Shown here piece after piece: positions 28,183 to 57,600 of a stretch of DNA of 64,000 bases (position 1 is the first letter of the stretch; the number at the start of each line of letters is the position of its first letter). This DNA comes from Betaproteobacteria bacterium (GTDB lineage Bacteria > Pseudomonadota > Gammaproteobacteria > Burkholderiales > SG8-41), in NCBI GenBank assembly GCA_021732605.1, contig JAKFUS010000010.1, forward strand, positions 62,001-126,000, written 5' to 3'. Under the pieces are notes generated by a model. It was not told where the DNA came from and did not search any database. It saw only the letters and a list, made by a program, of their open reading frames with translations. The position numbers and the translations under genes are program-made.

Positions 28183-28635
28183 ATGATTGTTTTTGATCTC
28201 GGCTGCGACAATGACCATCGGTTTGAGGGCTGGTTTGCCTCGAGCGAGGATTTTGAGCGCCAGCAAAAGGAAAACCTGCTGAGCTGCCCACTGTGCGGCA
28301 GCCTGCATATCAACCGGCTGCTCACTGCCGCGCGGCTCAATACCGGGCGCGCCGAAGCGCCCGCGGGTGAGCAAGCGGAACCGGCAGCCGGAGCCGTGCA
28401 ATACGCCAACTTCGATGCCGCGCGCATGCTCAAGCTGATTTCGCACATCGTCGACAATACTGATGATGTCGGCAAGGCGTTTCCAGAAGAGGCACGGAAG
28501 ATTCATTACAAGGAATCCCCGGAGCGCCATATCCGTGGCACAGCATCGCCGCGGGAAGTCGATGCCTTGCGTGATGAAGGCATCGAAATCGTTGCGCTGC
28601 CGCTGCCTGGGCATCTCGCCAACAAATCGCATTAA
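28183..28635 (+). CDS. DUF1178 family protein
   Basis: A 150-residue soluble protein of the DUF1178 family, function unknown. It starts MIVFDLGCDNDHRFEGWF and has a zinc-ribbon-like set of cysteines (Cys8 and CPLCGS near residue 37). The C-terminal conserved part is EEARKIHYKESPERHIRGTA and EVDALRDEGIE. It starts 38 bp after tRNA-Leu and is followed by a regulatory region with an AT-rich repeat and an FNR-type box. Confidence 0.9.
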   Translation: MIVFDLGCDNDHRFEGWFASSEDFERQQKENLLSCPLCGSLHINRLLTAARLNTGRAEAPAGEQAEPAAGAVQYANFDAARMLKLISHIVDNTDDVGKAFPEEARKIHYKESPERHIRGTASPREVDALRDEGIEIVALPLPGHLANKSH

Positions 28636-28737: not shown

Positions 28738-28780
28738 ACTTGATCCCGATCAAGTCCGGCATTTTCCCGCGTGCTATTCT
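28738..28780 (+). promoter_or_regulatory. FNR/Anr-type box with -10 element (class II promoter)
   Basis: ACTTGATCCCGATCAAGT at 28738-28755 is a perfect 8-bp inverted repeat around two bases and matches the FNR/Anr consensus TTGAT-N4-ATCAA exactly. A -10-like TATTCT lies at 28775-28780. A start about 7 nt after it puts the box centre close to -41, the class II activator position. It would drive the CAP-CBS-DUF294 gene and those behind it in response to low oxygen. The match is seen; the regulator is inferred. Confidence 0.72.
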
Positions 28781-28858
28781 GGAAAAATCCGGCGCGCCAT
28801 GATCGGGACGTGCCGTCCATGTGCTCATTCACAGACCGCGGTTCCGGGGAGAAGTCGC

Positions 28859-28930
28859 ATGTCCAAGCCTGCCCAGCTGGCCGCACGCGTTTGCAGCATG
28901 CCCGCCGTGCATCCGCTCCTTGAACAATGA
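28859..28930 (+). CDS. Possible 23-residue upstream ORF coupled to the CAP-CBS-DUF294 gene
   Basis: ATG 28859 follows GGGGAGAA with an 8-nt gap, a far better ribosome-binding site than that of the next gene. It encodes MSKPAQLAARVCSMPAVHPL plus three residues and ends in a TGA that overlaps the ATG at 28927 (ATGA). The arrangement suggests a short leader whose translation feeds ribosomes into the downstream gene. No similarity is known to me; it may only serve coupling, or be chance. Confidence 0.4.
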   Translation: MSKPAQLAARVCSMPAVHPLLEQ

Positions 28931-30834
28931 CTGACCCCGCCGCCCGCAGCACTGCGGTGATCGCCGATGCGGTAACGAAGTTCCTGCGCCGCTACCTGCC
29001 GTTTGCACAGATGGAAGAGGCCGCACTGCAGTATCTCGCGGCCAATCTCGATCTCGGTTATTACCCCAAAGGTACTGTGATCATCGATCCGGCGCAGGCT
29101 GAGCCCCGGGTCTTGTGCATCATTCAACGCGGGACTGTGCAGGTGGTTCCGTTCAACGCGATGCACGGCGGCGATACCCAGCCAGTAAGCCTGGGTGCCG
29201 GTGAGTGCTTCTCGGTCAGTGCGCTGCTGGAGAAGCGTGCGGTGATGGCGCCCTATACCGCCACAGCGGATACCTTCTGTTATGAATTGCCAGCAGGCCG
29301 GTTTCCTGAGCTGCTGAATCGCAGCCCTGTATTCCGCGAATTCGCAACGCGTTATCTGACCAGCATGCTGCAGGAATCACGGCGACAGATGCAACTTGAT
29401 CACGCGTCGGCTGCCGGGGAGCAGCAGGCGATGAGCCGGTCATTGCGCTCGCTGGTGGCGCGCGGGGCGGTGACCTGTTTGCCACAAACACCGGTCGGCG
29501 AGGTGTTGCGCCGCATGCGGGACAGCAAGATCGGCTCCATGCTGGTCGTCAACGATGGCGGCCAGGCGGCGGGTATTTTTACCCGGCACGACGTACTCGA
29601 CCGTGTTGCTCTGGAGCAATGCAATCTGGCGCGTCCGATCAGCGACATCATGACGCCGGATCCGCTGACCTTGCCGGCGGAAGCCAGCGCGTATGACGCT
29701 GCGCTGCTGATCGCCCATCGCGGCATCCGCCATATCCCGGTGTGCGATGAGGGCCGGGTGATCGGCGTTGTCACTGAGCGCGATCTGTTTGCGCTGCAGC
29801 GCGTCAGCGTGCGTGCCATCAACCAAACCATCGCCGATGCGGCTTCCATCGGTGGCCTGCAGTTCGCGGCCTCCGATATTCGCCGGTTGGCCCGCAGCCT
29901 GCTCGGTCAGGGCGTGGCTGCAGAGCAGCTGACGCTGATCATTTCAACGCTGAACGATGCGCTGGTGCGACGGGTGCTGGAAATTGAACAGGCGGAATTT
30001 GCGGTCGCCGACATTCGCTGGTGCTGGCTGGCGTTCGGCAGCGAAGGCCGCTACGAGCAGAGCATCAGCACCGATCAGGACAATGGCCTGATTTTCGATG
30101 CCGGTGATGCGGACCCACGGCCATTGCGTGAGCGCCTGCTGCCGTTTGCGCAGGCGGTCAACCGCGATCTCGACGCCTGTGGTTTCCCGTTGTGCAAGGG
30201 CAACATCATGGCTGGCAATCCGCAGTGGTGCCTGAGCCTGGGCGAATGGCGCGAACAGTTCGACTCCTGGATCACCGATACCGATCCGCAGGCGCTGCTC
30301 AACGCGGTGATTTTTTTTGATTTTCGGCCGCTGCATGGTGACGAGGCGCCGGCCCGGATGCTGCGCAGCCATCTGTCCGGACTGGCGCAGGGTAATTCCC
30401 GGTTCCAGCACCAGCTGGCGCAATACGCGCTCGAAACGCGGCCGCCACTGGGCAGGATCAGTGATTTTGTAACGGATGACGGTGAGTTCAATGGCACCAT
30501 TGATCTGAAAAAATCCGGCGCCCGGCTGTTCATTGACGGGGCGCGTGTGCTCGCGCTGGCGACGGGGGTGCTGCATACCAATACTGCGCAGCGGTTGCGC
30601 CAAGCCGGATTGCGGCTGCACATGCCGCCGGAGGAGATTGCGTCCATCAGTGATGGATTTTTTTTCCTGCAGGCACTGCGTCTGCGCGGGCAGATGGCCG
30701 CGGATAGTGCGATGGGAGCCGCAAACCGGATCAATCCGGCGGACCTGAACGAAGTGGACCGGCGCATCCTCAAGGAAAGTTTTCGCCAGGCGCGCAAGCT
30801 GCAGAGCCGGATCGCGCTGGACTACCAGTTATGA
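28927..30834 (+). CDS. Predicted signal-transduction protein: cNMP-binding, CBS pair and DUF294 nucleotidyltransferase
   Basis: A 635-residue cytoplasmic protein. Domains: a CAP-like cyclic-nucleotide-binding fold (about 20-145), two CBS domains that bind adenine nucleotides (about 178-300; MLVVNDGGQAAGIFTRHD, IGVVTERDLF), a GlnD-like nucleotidyltransferase core (about 330-460; FGSEGRYEQSISTDQD, giving the GS and acidic motifs), and the DUF294 C-terminal helical domain (about 480-630). The acidic pair suggests an active transferase; the target is unknown. Partner of the DnaQ-like gene 10 bp downstream, a pairing often seen near acetate/acyl-CoA genes. Preceded by an FNR-type box. Confidence 0.92.
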   Translation: MTDPAARSTAVIADAVTKFLRRYLPFAQMEEAALQYLAANLDLGYYPKGTVIIDPAQAEPRVLCIIQRGTVQVVPFNAMHGGDTQPVSLGAGECFSVSALLEKRAVMAPYTATADTFCYELPAGRFPELLNRSPVFREFATRYLTSMLQESRRQMQLDHASAAGEQQAMSRSLRSLVARGAVTCLPQTPVGEVLRRMRDSKIGSMLVVNDGGQAAGIFTRHDVLDRVALEQCNLARPISDIMTPDPLTLPAEASAYDAALLIAHRGIRHIPVCDEGRVIGVVTERDLFALQRVSVRAINQTIADAASIGGLQFAASDIRRLARSLLGQGVAAEQLTLIISTLNDALVRRVLEIEQAEFAVADIRWCWLAFGSEGRYEQSISTDQDNGLIFDAGDADPRPLRERLLPFAQAVNRDLDACGFPLCKGNIMAGNPQWCLSLGEWREQFDSWITDTDPQALLNAVIFFDFRPLHGDEAPARMLRSHLSGLAQGNSRFQHQLAQYALETRPPLGRISDFVTDDGEFNGTIDLKKSGARLFIDGARVLALATGVLHTNTAQRLRQAGLRLHMPPEEIASISDGFFFLQALRLRGQMAADSAMGAANRINPADLNEVDRRILKESFRQARKLQSRIALDYQL

Positions 30835-30844
30835 GCAGGCGGCA

Positions 30845-31540
30845 ATGAACTGGTTGCGCCGGCTGTTCGGGTTCAGACCGCGGCTGGGCACGGATCAGTT
30901 ACTCGCACTGGCCGCACATGAAGCACGGCCGGCGCCACCTCCAGCCACTCCACTGGCCACGTTGCGCTTTGTGGTGGTTGACGTTGAAACCTCCGGCCTT
31001 AACCCGTTCAGTGACCGGCTGATCGCGATTGGCGCATTGACGGTAGAGGACTGCACGGTTCGGCTCAACAGTGGTTTTGAGGTGGTGCTGTGCCAGCCGC
31101 AGGCCAGTACCCGTGCGAATATCCTGATCCACGGTATCGACGGCACCACGCAGCTGGGCGGACTGGCGCCGGCAACAGCACTCATCCACTTCCTTGATTA
31201 TGCAGAGCGCGCGCCGCTGGTCGGATTTCATGCCGATTTTGATCGCGTGATGATCGACCGTGCCGCCAGGGAGGCGCTGGGGCAAACGCCATCGACCGTC
31301 TGGCTGGATCTGGCGTATCTGGCGCCTGCAGTATTCCCGGGTTTGGCGTTGCAGGGGCTGGATGCATGGACGCAGCACTTTGACATCGAAAACCATGCGC
31401 GGCACAACGCACTGGCTGACGCGCTGGCGACGGCGCAATTGCTGCAAATCGTGCTGGCGCGGGCCATTGCAACAGGGATCACGACTCTGGGCGATCTGCA
31501 GCGTATCGAAAGCGATCAGCGCTGGCTCAGTCGATGCTGA
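30845..31540 (+). CDS. DnaQ-like 3'-5' exonuclease (DEDDh)
   Basis: A 231-residue exonuclease of the DNA polymerase III epsilon type. Exo I reads VDVETSGLNP (Asp, Glu), Exo II GFHADFDRVM (Asp), Exo III RHNALADALAT (His, Asp), so the active site is complete. The first 40 residues are a basic leader and Pro-rich linker, unlike replicative DnaQ. It follows the DUF294 gene by 10 bp and is likely cotranscribed; such pairs are probably accessory, not the replisome proofreader. Confidence 0.92.
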   Translation: MNWLRRLFGFRPRLGTDQLLALAAHEARPAPPPATPLATLRFVVVDVETSGLNPFSDRLIAIGALTVEDCTVRLNSGFEVVLCQPQASTRANILIHGIDGTTQLGGLAPATALIHFLDYAERAPLVGFHADFDRVMIDRAAREALGQTPSTVWLDLAYLAPAVFPGLALQGLDAWTQHFDIENHARHNALADALATAQLLQIVLARAIATGITTLGDLQRIESDQRWLSRC

Positions 31541-31637
31541 TCAGGGTACCTGACGGTTTGCCCGGATGTGTTGTAATTCAGGCAGGCTGTGAGATAGTGA
31601 CATGCAGCCTGCTGCCCGCAATTTCACAATACGAACA

Positions 31638-33725
31638 ATGAACGAATTACAGGCGCTACTCAGTCCCCGTACGATTGCCATCCTTGGTGCCTCCGCCGAC
31701 CTGAACAAAGTCAATGGACGCACACTGCGTTTTTTGCAGGAGAAGGGATACGCAGGTCGTATTTATCCGGTCAATCCGAAATATGAAACGATTGCCGGCC
31801 TGCGCTGTTATCCCGCTATTGCGGCATTGCCCGAGGCGCCGGATCTTGCGGTGATCGCCGTGCCTGCGGCGCAGGTGCTGGCATCGGTGCGCGAACTGGT
31901 GCAACGCGGCGCGCGCACTGCGGTGATTTTCAGTTCGGGTTTCGCCGAGATGGGCGAGGCGGGGCGCCAATTGGAGCGTGAAGTCGCCGCGGCGGCGCGC
32001 GTCGGTGGTCTGCGTCTGTGCGGTCCCAATTGCCTGGGATTGATTAATGCGTTTGACAATGTCATTGCCACTTTCGGCCAGTTTGCAGAGGGTGCAACGC
32101 CGCCGGGTCCGGTGGGATTCGTCACCCAGTCGGGCGCGTTCGGTACCGCCATCGCAGCGCTGGCACGAAGGCGTGCGCTGGGCTTGGGCTATTTCATCAA
32201 CACCGGCAACGAGTGCGATGTTGATTTTGTGCAGATGATGCGCGCAGTGCTAGACGATGACCGTATCCACGTCGGTGCTGGTTATCTTGAGGGGGTTCGC
32301 GATGGCACAGGGCTGCGCGCACTGGCTGAACATGCCCTCGGCCTCGGCAAACCGCTGGCGCTGACCAAAGTCGGGCGCACCGCCGCCGGCGCCAAAGCCG
32401 CTGCATCGCATACCGGCGCAATCGCTGGCGCCGACTCGGTGTTCGATGGTGTGATCCGCGGCCTGGGCATCGCCCGCGCTCGCAATGAAGAACACATGCT
32501 CGACATCGTCGAAGTGCTGGGCGCCTGCAAACTGCCGGCAGGGCAAGGCATCGCCATCGTCACCCAGTCCGGTGGCGCCGGCGTTCTGATGGCGGATCGT
32601 GCGGAGGAGATGGGCTTGCAGGTCGCCGAACTTCAAGGGCAGACGCGCGCAGCATTGAGTAAAGTCATTCCGGGATTCGGCACCACTGGAAATCCGGTGG
32701 ATGTGACCGGTCAGTTTGTTGCGGATCCCCGCCTGTTGTTCGACAGCGTGCGCATTGTGATGGACGACCCGCAGGTGCATGTCGGTATCGTTTGGTTGCA
32801 GCTGATGGATGGACACGTTGACCGCCTTATAAAAATATTCTTTGAAATCAAAGAGATAGTTAATAAGCCTTGGGTGGTGTGCTGGGTGGCCGCGCCCGAT
32901 GACGCGTTGGCAAAACTGCGCGCCGCCGGCATCCCGGTATTGCGCGGCGCCGAGCCCGCGGTCGATGCCGTTGCCGCGCTGGTGCGTTACGCCGAGGTCC
33001 GGCGCAACTGGTTGAGCGAGGCGCCTGCCCGCGCAGCGTTGCCGTCACCCAAACCCGTGTTACCTGCCAAGGCGGGGGCGATCGGCAGTATGGAAGGTCA
33101 AGCACTGCTGCAATCATTCAATGTACCGACTGCCGCCGCACGGCTGGCGAGAACTGCCGATGAAGCGGTGGCCGCAGCCCAGACGCTGGGTTATCCGGTG
33201 GTGCTGAAAATCGAATCGCCGGATATCCTGCACAAGACTGAAGCCAAAGGTGTTGCGCTGAATCTGGGCGATGACTCTGCAGTAAGCGCTGCGTTTTCCG
33301 TTTTGATCGCCAACGCCAAACAGCATAAAAGCGATGCCCGCATCGCCGGTGTATTGGTGCAGGCGATGGTGAAGGGTGACATTGAACTCGTGATCGGTTT
33401 GAAGCGTGATCCGACCTTCGGCCCGGTGGTGATGGTCGGGCTGGGCGGGGTGCTGATCGAAGTATTCAAGGACGTGGTGTTCCGTGTAGCACCGGTGACC
33501 GAAGCCGAGGCGCTGCGCATGCTAGGTGAACTCAAAAGCAAGGTGATCCTCGAAGGTGTGCGCGGCAAACCGCCGGTCAATAAAGCAGCGCTGGCACAGA
33601 TGATCAGCGCGGTATCGCGTTTCGGCGCAGCGGCGGGACCACGGCTGGCCGAGCTTGATCTCAACCCGGTGCTGGCCGGACCGCAGGGTGCAACTGCCGT
33701 CGATTGGCTGATGGTGCTGGATTGA
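31638..33725 (+). CDS. Acetate/acyl-CoA ligase (ADP-forming), fused alpha-beta type
   Basis: A 695-residue NDP-forming acyl-CoA synthetase. It has an N-terminal CoA-binding Rossmann domain (ILGASADLNKVNGRTLRFL), a succinyl-CoA-ligase-like middle with the phospho-His motif ASHTGAIAG, and a C-terminal ATP-grasp domain (GYPVVLKIESPDILHKTEA, VMVGLGGVLIEVFKD). It makes acyl-CoA from acid, ATP and CoA, or the reverse. ATG 31638 gives the family start MNELQALLSPRTIAILG; an upstream in-frame ATG at 31602 adds 12 residues. Codons 32827-32869 are strikingly AT-rich and match the intergenic repeat. It overlaps the MFS gene by 4 bp. Confidence 0.92.
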   Translation: MNELQALLSPRTIAILGASADLNKVNGRTLRFLQEKGYAGRIYPVNPKYETIAGLRCYPAIAALPEAPDLAVIAVPAAQVLASVRELVQRGARTAVIFSSGFAEMGEAGRQLEREVAAAARVGGLRLCGPNCLGLINAFDNVIATFGQFAEGATPPGPVGFVTQSGAFGTAIAALARRRALGLGYFINTGNECDVDFVQMMRAVLDDDRIHVGAGYLEGVRDGTGLRALAEHALGLGKPLALTKVGRTAAGAKAAASHTGAIAGADSVFDGVIRGLGIARARNEEHMLDIVEVLGACKLPAGQGIAIVTQSGGAGVLMADRAEEMGLQVAELQGQTRAALSKVIPGFGTTGNPVDVTGQFVADPRLLFDSVRIVMDDPQVHVGIVWLQLMDGHVDRLIKIFFEIKEIVNKPWVVCWVAAPDDALAKLRAAGIPVLRGAEPAVDAVAALVRYAEVRRNWLSEAPARAALPSPKPVLPAKAGAIGSMEGQALLQSFNVPTAAARLARTADEAVAAAQTLGYPVVLKIESPDILHKTEAKGVALNLGDDSAVSAAFSVLIANAKQHKSDARIAGVLVQAMVKGDIELVIGLKRDPTFGPVVMVGLGGVLIEVFKDVVFRVAPVTEAEALRMLGELKSKVILEGVRGKPPVNKAALAQMISAVSRFGAAAGPRLAELDLNPVLAGPQGATAVDWLMVLD

Positions 33726-34984
33726 GCGCGCCCGCGCGGGTCTCCGCACTCGCACCTTTCAGCGTACGCAGTTTCCGTTTTCAATGGCCGGCGGATCTGG
33801 CGACGTCATGGGCCTTCGAAATGGAAACACTGATCCTCGGCTGGTACGTGCTGGTCGAAACCAAATCAGTGCTGATGCTGACCATCTACGCATCGCTGCA
33901 GTATGTCGGCACGCTGCTGGCGCCGATGTTCGGTGTCATGGGCGACAGGGTGGGCCACCGCAATGTGCTGTGTGCCATGCGCGCACTGTATGCGGTGCTG
34001 GCTACGCTGCTGATGTCACTGGCGTTCATGGATGCCGTGACCCCGATGATCGTACTCGCCATTGCCGCCATGCTCGGCCTGGTGCGGCCGTCGGACATCG
34101 GCATGCGCACAGCACTGGTCGGCGAGACCATGCCGTCATCGCAACTGATGGGGGCCATGAGCATCCAGCGCACCACCCAGGACACGGCGCGTATCGCCGG
34201 CGCGCTGACCGGCGCGGGATTGGTCGCGATGCTGGGTATGGGGGCGGCTTATGCCGCAGTGGTCTGTTTTTACTTGATTAGTTTGTTACTGACGTGGCAG
34301 GCCGGCAGTACGCAGGGCGGCCAGCCGTCTGCAGTGAAGGCAAGCACTGTGCAACGCGCTTCACCATGGCGTGAACTGCGGGAAGGGTTGTCTTATGTCT
34401 GGCATGCACCGCAACTGCGCGCGGCCATGTTGTTCGCATTCCTGCTCAACCTCACGGCGTTTCCGCTCTTTACCGGCTTGATGCCGTACGTGGCCAAGGA
34501 GGTTTACGGCGCCGACCAGACCACTCTGGGCACCTTGGTGGCATCGGCTGCGACGGGTGCGCTGATAGGTTCGATCATCATGACCCGTTTTGGCGGCATG
34601 TTCCAGCCGGCGCGCGCCATGATCGTGTTCGGCATCGCGTGGCTGGCGATGCTGCTGGTGTTCGTGCAGACCCAAAGTCCCGCAACCGGCATCCCGGTGC
34701 TGATGGTCGCAGGCTGTATGCAGACTATGGGTTTGATTCCCAATAATGCGCTGTTGCTGCGCAATTCCGATGAGCGTTATCGCGGACGCATCATGGGCAT
34801 CCGGATGATGGCGATTTACGGCAATCTGCCGGGACTGCTGCTGGCCGGACCGTTGATCGCCACTTTCGGCTATACGAAGATGGCCATGGGTTATTCCCTG
34901 TTCGGCATCGTATTTGCCGTGCTGATTGCGCTGACTTGGCGCCGGCATCTCTGGCAAAGCGGGGCAGAAGCGAATCTGCGCTAA
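33722..34984 (+). CDS. MFS transporter
   Basis: A 420-residue major facilitator with about 12 membrane segments. It has the loop 2-3 motif GVMGDRVGHRNVL and a second-half counterpart GRIMGIRMM. The overall form is like the MFS_3/enterobactin-exporter group. The likely start is TTG 33722, whose last bases overlap the stop of the acyl-CoA ligase gene (TTGA), implying cotranscription; a TTG at 33704 is an alternative. The substrate is unknown. By position it may move an acid linked to the acyl-CoA ligase. Confidence 0.88.
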   Translation: MSAPARVSALAPFSVRSFRFQWPADLATSWAFEMETLILGWYVLVETKSVLMLTIYASLQYVGTLLAPMFGVMGDRVGHRNVLCAMRALYAVLATLLMSLAFMDAVTPMIVLAIAAMLGLVRPSDIGMRTALVGETMPSSQLMGAMSIQRTTQDTARIAGALTGAGLVAMLGMGAAYAAVVCFYLISLLLTWQAGSTQGGQPSAVKASTVQRASPWRELREGLSYVWHAPQLRAAMLFAFLLNLTAFPLFTGLMPYVAKEVYGADQTTLGTLVASAATGALIGSIIMTRFGGMFQPARAMIVFGIAWLAMLLVFVQTQSPATGIPVLMVAGCMQTMGLIPNNALLLRNSDERYRGRIMGIRMMAIYGNLPGLLLAGPLIATFGYTKMAMGYSLFGIVFAVLIALTWRRHLWQSGAEANLR

Positions 34985-54670: not shown

Positions 54671-57600
54671 TTCCTTCGGTGTCGCCTGCCAGCGCAGATC
54701 CAAGGTCATTGGAAATGCCGGATTCAGCGCTTCAGGCGCGACATCCATCGGGCCAGGTGTATGGCCATGTTCCCAGAAGCGTGCGACACGTCGCGCTTCC
54801 GCTTCGTTGGCATTGACCGGGAAGGTGCTGTAGCTGCGGCCCCCCGGATGCGACACATGGTAAGTGCAGCCGCCGATCGAACGTTTGCTCCAGGTATCAA
54901 TGACATCGAACACCAGCGGTGCATGCACGCCGATGGTCGGATGCAGGGCTGACGGCGGATTCCACGCACAGTAACGCAGGCCCGCGACAAATTCACCCGG
55001 GGTGCCGGTCGAAACCATCGGCAGTGCACGACCGTTGCAGGCAATCAGGTGGCGCGATTCGGTCAAGCCGCGGGCGCGCACCTGCAGCCGTTCCACCGAT
55101 GAATCGACGTAACGCGCGGTGGCATTGAGGCCGATTTCCTCGCCGAGTACGTTCCACGGTTCGATCGCCTGGCGCAGTTCGAGTTCGATGCCGTTGTAGG
55201 ACACTGTGCCGTAACGCGGGAAACGGAATTCGTGGAACGGCGCATACCAGGCATCGTCGAAAGCATAACCGGCGCGGCGCAGGTCGCCCAGCACGTCGTG
55301 GAAATCGGTGGCAATGAAATGCGGCAGCATGAAGCGGTCGTGGAGTTGCGTGCCCCAGCGCACCAGCTTCGACTGGTAGGGCTTTTCCCAGAACCACGCC
55401 ACCAATCCACGAAGCAGCAGCATCTGCGCAAGACTCATCTGCGGATGCGGCGGCATTTCAAAGCCGCGGAATTCGACCAGGCCGAGCCGGCCCGTGCCGC
55501 CGTGTCCGGCATAGAGCTTGTCGATGCAGAATTCGGCGCGATGAGTATTGCCGGTAAGGTCGACCAGAAAATTGCGCAACAGCCGGTTGGTGGTTTCCGG
55601 GGGCAGCGCGGCGCCGTGTTTTTCCTGAAGTGCCGCCATCTGCTGGAACGCGATTTCCAGTTCGTACAGGTTGTCATCGCGCGCTTCATCGACGCGCGGT
55701 GCCTGGCTGGTCGGACCGATGAACATGCCGGAGAACAGGTACGACAGCGAGGGATGGTTCTGCCAGTAGGTGATCAGACTGCGCAGCAGGTCGGGCCGGC
55801 GCAGCAGCGGGCTGCTGGCGGCTTTGGCGCCGCCAAGAGTGATGTGATTACCGCCGCCGCTGCCGGTATGGCGGCCGTCGAGCATGAACTTTTCAGTGCC
55901 CAGTCGCGCCGCCCGTGCTTCTTCATAAAGTGCGTTGGTATTGGCGACGAGTTGCTTCCAACTGGCCGCGGGATGGATGTTAACTTCAATGACACCCGGA
56001 TCCGGCGTCACGTTCAGCACCGTCACCAAGGGATCGATGGGGGGGCCGTAACCTTCCAGCCGGATGCGCAGATTCAGTTGTGCCGCAACGCCTTCGATGG
56101 CGGCCAGCAGGTCAATATAAGGCTTGATGGCTTCAAACGGCGGCAGAAAGATGTGCAGCCGGCCATCGCGTGCTTCTACGCACAATGCGGTACGTACGAT
56201 TTTGCCGCCTGCCGGCAGGGTTTCCGGCAAAGCCGATAACGGCAGGCGGTAGCCGATGGATGAATCGCCATTGATCAGGATCAATTGGTCATCGGGCAAC
56301 GGCCACGGTGAGCTGACCCAGCCAGCTTCAGTGGCGCCCAATGGCAGTACATGGCCGGTGGGCTGTGCGCTGCCCGGCACGCGCAGCGCTTTTTCGGGTG
56401 AAAGATGTGTGAGCGGATCTTCCCAGGCCGGCAGCAGCCGTTCCGGTGCCAGGCCCAGTGCGGTGGTCAGTGCGACAACAAAACGTTGCGCATCCACGGC
56501 ACGTGAGTCTGCTGGTGTCGCTGCGGCGGCAATCAGCGCCGGATGGCGCCATAGCATTTGACCGTCATTGCGCCATTGAATGCCGAGCGCCCAGCGTGGC
56601 AGCGGCTCACCTGGATACCATTTGCCCTGGCCGTAGAACACCACACCGCCAGGGGCGAAACGTTCCTTGAGCCGCCAGGTCAGTTGTTCGGCGAGCAGCC
56701 ATTTTTTTTCCGACAGTGCAGCGGTATTCCATTCCTCGCCTTCCATGTCGTCGATCGAGACGAATGTAGGTTCTCCGCCCTGGGTCAGGCGCACGTCCTT
56801 TGTGGCCAGTGTGGTGTCGATCTGCTGGCCCAGCGCGTCCATGGCCAACCACTGTGCCTCATCGTATGGTTTGGTGACACGCGGGTCCTCGTGGATGCGC
56901 GTGACGTTCATCGCGAATTCGAATCGCGTTTCGCAGGGGTCGACGCCACCACTGACCGGCGCGGCACTGGCGGGCGACGGCGTGCAGGCGAGGGGAATGT
57001 GACCTTCGCCGGCGAGCAGGCCTGAGGTCGGGTCCAGACCCACCCAGCCGGCACCGGGGATGTAGGCTTCAGCCCAGGCGTGCAGATCGGTGAAATCAAC
57101 TTCGGTGCCTGAGGGGCCATCCAGGGCTTTCTGGTCGGCCTTCAGCTGGATCAGGTAGCCGGAAACAAAGCGTGCAGCGAGGCCGCAATGGCGCAGGATC
57201 TGCACCATCAGCCAACCGCTGTCACGGCAGGATCCGCTGCGGTTGCCCAGCGTCTGTTCGCAGGTCTGCACACCGGGTTCCATGCGCACCAGGTAACGGA
57301 TATCGCGCTGCAACTGCTGGTTGACGGCGATCAGGAAATCGATGGTGGCGACCGGACCGGCATTTGCTGCGCGGAAGTCAGCCAGCCATTTTTGCAGCAT
57401 TGATCCCTGTTCGTCGATCGCCAGGTACGGCGTCAGGTCGCGCATCAGCTCGGGCCGATAGGCGAACGGGAATTTGTCGGCGTAGGACTCGATGAAAAAA
57501 TCGAAGGGATTGATCACCGTCATGTCGGCGACGAGGTCGACATTGATTTCCAGTTCACGCGTTTTTTCCGGAAAGACGAAGCGGCCGATGTAATTGCCGA

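Follow-up and report, generated by a model that had tools for sequence, protein, structure and literature searches.

Class II FNR/Anr promoters carry a box of the TTGAT-N4-ATCAA type centred near −41.5, keep a −10 element and have no recognisable −35 element. Passages of one study place FNR boxes at −41.5 before uspA and ccoN and at −42.5 before hemN2, and regard positions from −40.5 to −42.5 as slightly displaced class II sites (PMC7713065). In those parts of a second study on which we draw, the predicted core regulon of FNR in alpha-proteobacteria includes UspA, FNR, hemN and oxidase genes, and fnr adjoins the cbb3 genes in many species (PMC2908626). A table there also assigns a signal-transduction protein with CBS domains to the predicted FixK regulon, an entry comparable with the gene studied here in that a CBS-domain protein is listed as the target of an FNR-family regulator (PMC2908626). 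According to an excerpt of a third study, universal stress proteins are up-regulated in anr mutants of Pseudomonas aeruginosa (PMC8087004), and control of usp genes by the FNR/Anr family is therefore not uniform.

We describe a promoter of this kind in the window, the whole 64,000-nucleotide stretch of DNA analysed here, which comes from the draft genome of a Betaproteobacteria bacterium (G000). It shares the box type, the want of a recognisable −35 and the kept −10 with class II promoters, has a box centre close to −41.5 by a predicted start, and differs from them in that no FNR was detected in its genome. In relatives the promoter precedes uspA, and its geometry is almost that of the uspA promoter of Sphingopyxis granuli (box at −41.5, in passages of PMC7713065), whereas the window has a CAP-CBS-DUF294 gene where uspA was deleted. 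The ancestral gene of the promoter is thus a known kind of FNR target in the portions of both sources used (PMC7713065, PMC2908626). No publication on an FNR box ahead of a DUF294 gene came up in our literature searches, which is no proof of absence. We consider it probable that the promoter was inherited as one of the class II FNR type and then orphaned by the loss first of uspA and later of fnr.

Promoter geometry and the DUF294 operon

The FNR/Anr-type box TTGATCCCGATCAA lies at 28740-28753 on the plus strand, within the 18-mer ACTTGATCCCGATCAAGT that spans 28738-28755. Its arms, GACTTGAT and ATCAAGTC, form a perfect palindrome over 8 bp around an inner CCCG that is not palindromic, so that the exact TTGAT-N4-ATCAA palindrome reported in the earlier note is indeed present and fits the TTGAY-N4-RTCAA pattern of class II FNR promoters. 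An extended −10 element, TG-C-TATTCT (28772-28780, plus strand; TG at 28772-28773, TATTCT at 28775-28780), lies downstream, its hexamer 28.5 nt from the centre of the box (28746.5). From geometry only, with the hexamer taken as −12 to −7, transcription is predicted to start at 28787 on the plus strand, which would put the box centre at −40.5 (class II reference about −41.5), near the class II position, about 41 nt before the predicted start, that the same note had assigned to it. A generic sigma-70 scan called no promoter at the box and TATTCT region, as would be expected if the box replaces the −35 element. Upstream, a DUF1178 gene recognised by Pfam (28183-28635, plus strand) marks the boundary of the unit, and DUF1178 sequence is recognised upstream in several other loci of the genus as well.

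The first large gene of the operon (28927-30834, plus strand) encodes a 635-aa protein with CAP-like, two CBS, DUF294 and DUF294_C regions (Pfam E values of 6.8e-48 for DUF294, 5.3e-36 for DUF294_C and 2.1e-27 for CBS); its cNMP_binding match (3.5e-6, 27.3 bits) is slightly under the cut-off of 27.5. This combination of domains suggests a nucleotide-sensing nucleotidyltransferase, and DUF294_C has been classed with GlnD/GlnE-type C-terminal domains (in an extract of PMC3710099). On the same strand follow a DnaQ-like 3'-5' exonuclease of 231 aa (30845-31540; RNase_T, 8.7e-15), an ADP-forming acyl-CoA ligase of the acetate-CoA type of 707 aa (31602-33725; recognised by Pfam, under the NCBIfam equivalog cut-offs) and an MFS transporter of 426 aa (33704-34984; Pfam), whose start overlaps the end of the ligase gene. 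Pfam thereby confirms the gene run read earlier from the translations. The ligase and MFS genes also follow the DUF294 gene in L014, L015 and L020, with the exonuclease displayed in L020.

Conservation of the promoter and loss of uspA

Sequence searches with the DUF294 protein retrieved its relatives, giving 68 loci and, separately, 61 genomes. Those in L015, L035, L046 and L050 come from assemblies of metagenomes under the titles Bordetella parapertussis or Chitinophaga pinensis, which look wrong. A near full-length DUF294 protein is found in 18 of the 21 genomes of the genus, G000 counted. Seventeen of these can be tested for the promoter, G012 being left out with only 563 nt upstream on a contig that ends before the box position. 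The box with a TA...T hexamer at exactly 28.5 nt precedes the DUF294 operon in 14 of the 17. The other three, G009 (784 nt upstream available), G016 and G017, have neither box nor uspA at the DUF294 locus, though they bear FNR, a point against the reading of an orphaned promoter. Outside the genus, G026 and G032, which share another genus, show the same arrangement, for 16 promoters in total. Distant DUF294 loci among the 68 show no consistent box, and in L023, L024 and L062 matches at 9 of 10 box positions are found, over 500 nt upstream. Exact FNR-type boxes also occur before the DUF294 genes of three distant relatives, L028 (4938-4989), L101 (G028) and L105 (G034); these do not have the 28.5-nt arrangement and were excluded from the conserved count.

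Across the 16 aligned promoters, which were selected on TTGA, TCAA, TA...T and their spacing, these elements are invariant, as is the TG, which lay outside the selection; the spacer and flanks vary. The second half-site reads RTCAA in 15 promoters and CTCAA in G007. Mean information is 1.80 bits over the ten arm positions and 2.0 for the TG, against 0.53 for the spacer and 0.35 for the flank. All 16 hexamers still land at 28.5 nt in a looser scan that permitted distances of 27.5 to 31.5 nt, and the −10 is thus kept in relatives at matching distance, as in class II FNR promoters.

These data bear on the reading of the palindrome as a functionless chance match, to which we give practically no credence. 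In its favour, four of the five exact boxes in G000 (3.48 Mb, 75 contigs) have no −10 at the 28.5-nt spacing, and three of those four fall in reading frames. Shuffles and conservation rule it out: only 0.0008 exact boxes are expected by chance in the 291-nt intergenic stretch, and the box is kept at fixed spacing in 16 genomes. The window as a whole contains two exact boxes, versus 0.07 per dinucleotide shuffle (200 shuffles), and seven with one mismatch allowed, versus a shuffle mean of 1.49; a box with TG-N-TANNNT at the same spacing occurs once in the window and in none of 200 dinucleotide shuffles. The second exact box, TTGATCAGGATCAA at 56271-56284, lies within a minus-strand coding sequence of 1035 aa and lacks a −10 at 26.5-32.5 nt; being intragenic, it was set aside as a further promoter. 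The looser pattern TTGAYN4RTCAA occurs 14 times in G000, versus 4 for the reversed control pattern, and 18 to 56 times in six relatives that all bear FNR, versus 1 to 5 for the controls. Among the 14 sites of G000, the DUF294 box alone has TANNNT at 28.5 nt; four others, including both of the oxalate-gene sites discussed below, have it at 29.5 or 30.5 nt.

Eleven of the 18 DUF294-bearing genomes of the genus have uspA between the box and the DUF294 gene (ten by script and G006 separately; G012 is among the 11). In L016-L019 and L025 a gene for a universal stress protein of 148-150 aa intervenes, so that some 600 nt separate the box from the DUF294 gene; the copy in L017 matches Pfam Usp (PF00582) at 2.2e-30. 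The locus is without uspA in the box-bearing G000, G005, G007 and G020 and in the box-less G009, G016 and G017. In the protein tree the four box-bearing genomes without uspA form one clade (support 1.000), with the uspA-bearing G011 next (support 0.906), so that a single loss of uspA suffices for these four.

Traces of the lost gene remain in the leader of the window (28781-28926, plus strand), where similarity to uspA 5' regions reveals a remnant of the uspA start region with its Shine-Dalgarno sequence and first codons. When the leaders were compared with the uspA start region, none of 200 two-base-block shuffles reached the score of G000, G005 or G007, and one reached that of G020. The uspA 3' end is clear in G007 only (0 of 200 shuffles), with 59 shuffles reaching the score in G005 and 15 in G020; that it is not recognisable in the leader of the window (13 of 200) counts against the reading of an orphaned promoter. 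With uspA gone and its start region kept as a leader remnant, the DUF294 gene has inherited the promoter of uspA. This origin and the TG extension of the −10 go beyond what the earlier note contained. The remnant includes an ORF of 23 codons read from the sequence (MSKPAQLAARVCSMPAVHPLLEQ, 28859-28930, plus strand), which follows a GGGGAGA and matches nothing in Pfam at E 0.01. Its TGA overlaps the ATG of the DUF294 gene (ATGA), and no GGGGAGA-like site lies close to that ATG, suggesting that the remnant ORF may be translationally coupled to the DUF294 start.

Absence of fnr from the assembly

Sixteen of the 21 genomes of the genus (16 of 20 besides G000) have a protein that passes the cut-off of the FNR model NF008365; G000, G002, G003, G010 and G018 do not. 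The sole match of the model in G000 is a CRP-like protein (E 1.6e-8). A cognate FNR, as would be expected in a genome with a class II FNR promoter, was found neither by profile nor by DNA searches of the draft contigs. The DNA of the fnr region of G005, compared with G000, recovered the left flank in contig C23 and not fnr (40 of 334 first-look candidates scored). Six proteins of G000 exceed the cut-off of the HTH model PF13545; five of them have a helix of the GVRRE type that lacks S-R, and the sixth is CRP-like. The model misses the oxalate-gene regulator and is therefore not exhaustive. That an fnr had been overlooked by this model was considered and rejected, for the FNR-specific model, the search with the G005 region and the cNMP-domain proteins gave none: among 13 cNMP-domain matches in G000 no FNR was seen (12 read over their last 260 residues; the remaining one is the DUF294 protein). 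The FNR cysteine cluster, which in the FNR of G005 reads CSSCSLHELC, is found in none of the Crp-family proteins read from G000, and two of these have an E-x2-S-R helix.

The gene order at the corresponding place supports a deletion. In G005, an SOD gene is followed by TauE-like, hemN, fnr, ccoG, ccoPON, ccoI and ompW-like genes and then by aat. In G000, contig C23 runs from SOD through an outer-membrane-type gene (Phenol_MetA_deg) to aat, and the hemN-fnr-cco block is absent (names in block and flanks were read from translations, except fnr by NCBIfam and ccoN by model). Both flanks lie on the same single contig, with DNA identities to G005 of 74-83% on the left and 85-87% on the right. The contig is continuous there, which rules out a contig end at the place of fnr.

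The earlier note had proposed that the operon is induced by oxygen limitation. An FNR-type promoter stands; control by FNR in G000 is not supported, no FNR being found and the block being absent within a continuous contig. We regard it as improbable that FNR is present in the organism and merely missing from the assembly, in which case oxygen regulation would be right as first read. The assembly is a draft in 75 contigs and 96.5% complete, so that fnr could sit on a contig that was not recovered or be carried by other cells in the population, and fnr occurs in most other members of the genus; against this stand the continuous syntenic place with both flanks matching G005 and the joint absence of fnr and ccoN from G000.

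The ccoN model scores over cut-off in 13 of the 21 genomes of the genus, the best that G000 offers being a 29.7-bit match, and ccoN is absent or fragmentary in the FNR-bearing G009, G013 and G016. Loss of every high-affinity oxidase is ruled out for G000, which keeps cytochrome bd. The five genomes without FNR are also without a proper ccoN, and three of the five lack the DUF294 gene as well. Conversely, the genomes of the genus without DUF294 (G003, G010 and G018) are all without FNR, which is missing from 2 of the 18 carriers (G000 and G002). The hypergeometric probability of this co-absence is 10/1330 = 0.0075, uncorrected for relatedness and with G003 and G010 being 74% and 84% complete and G002 in 430 contigs.

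The block itself carries FNR-type boxes in G005, around the starts of fnr/hemN, ccoN/usp and ccoI. Among the 15 readable sites of G005 (of 18), a TG-extended −10 at 28.5 nt is found at DUF294 alone, and the ccoN/usp site has a plain TA...T at 28.5 nt. For the relatives it is plausible that FNR induces transcription when oxygen is limiting, and there it would drive this promoter; in G000 the operon would be free of FNR control.

Candidate readers of the box and a probable history of the promoter

The box in G000 may be either a recently orphaned relic or a site read by another Crp-family protein with E-x2-S-R. Two such proteins are encoded, an oxalate-gene regulator (G000:C21:43852-44457, helix SPETLSR) and a CRP-like protein (G000:C7:8815-9504, helix SREMVSR); FNR of G005 has KLETVSR, and passages of PMC7713065 indicate that the E-x2-S-R residues matter for recognition of FNR boxes. 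Neither has the N-terminal cysteine cluster of an Fe-S protein, the oxalate-gene regulator being free of cysteine altogether. In the region G000:C21:43674-44558 (L149, L150 and L166), the regulator gene lies between genes named from their translations as formyl-CoA transferase and oxalyl-CoA decarboxylase. It is flanked by TTGACCGGAGTCAA, before the formyl-CoA transferase gene and 29.5 nt from TATAGT, and by TTGACCGGGGTCAA, before the oxalyl-CoA decarboxylase gene, both sites also occurring in G005 and G007.

That the box of G000 is still used through one of these proteins is unlikely in our estimate, albeit the most serious of the alternatives. The box is fully kept, both candidates carry the helix residues of FNR, and all 21 genomes of the genus have the oxalate-gene regulator, at 74-100% identity. 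The presumed sites of that regulator have TTGAC/GTCAA arms, however, as against TTGAT/ATCAA in the DUF294 box, and the CRP-like protein has an arginine before the glutamate of its helix, as in E. coli CRP. Both kinds of regulator coexist with FNR in relatives, so a takeover is not required. As a lead and not a result, the cysteine-free oxalate-gene regulator would rank best as candidate for one. We think it improbable that, after loss of FNR and the cbb3 oxidase, this regulator captured the box and rewired the operon from oxygen to C2/oxalate metabolism with the promoter unchanged. A precedent for FNR-type targets kept without FNR is Caulobacter, where a takeover of FNR targets by FixK has been proposed (in the portion of PMC2908626 used); unlike there, no FixK-type replacement was identified in G000.

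The age of the loss can be gauged from the branch of G000, whose length at fourfold sites is half of 0.48 + 0.54 − 0.37, or about 0.32 substitutions per site. Had FNR been lost at the start of the branch, the probability that 13 key positions stayed unchanged without constraint over its whole length would be about 0.015. An intact box at this divergence implies that FNR was lost late or that the box is still used.

Returning to the reading that we prefer, of an inherited and orphaned promoter, FNR in the ancestor would have occupied the box, some 41 nt ahead of the start, and taken the place of the −35 contact, together with the extended −10. Under oxygen limitation this promoter would have driven uspA and, behind it, the CAP-CBS-DUF294 gene with its partner genes. 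An internal deletion in the ancestor shared by G000 and its three nearest relatives would then have removed uspA, leaving promoter, leader, Shine-Dalgarno sequence and short ORF, and making the DUF294 gene first in the operon. Later, on the branch of G000, the hemN-fnr-cco (cbb3 oxidase) block would have been deleted, and with it FNR and the FNR-type boxes of the block. The operon of G000 would since have stood outside FNR control, relying on basal activity of the extended −10 or on another Crp-family protein.

The case warns against taking a perfect box in a single genome as evidence of the regulator itself. On this history, the promoter would have outlived both the gene that it served and its regulator, in steps that can be placed on a tree of close genomes. 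Within the genus, the shared uspA promoter and the tendency to co-absence tie the CAP-CBS-DUF294 operon to the FNR regulon.
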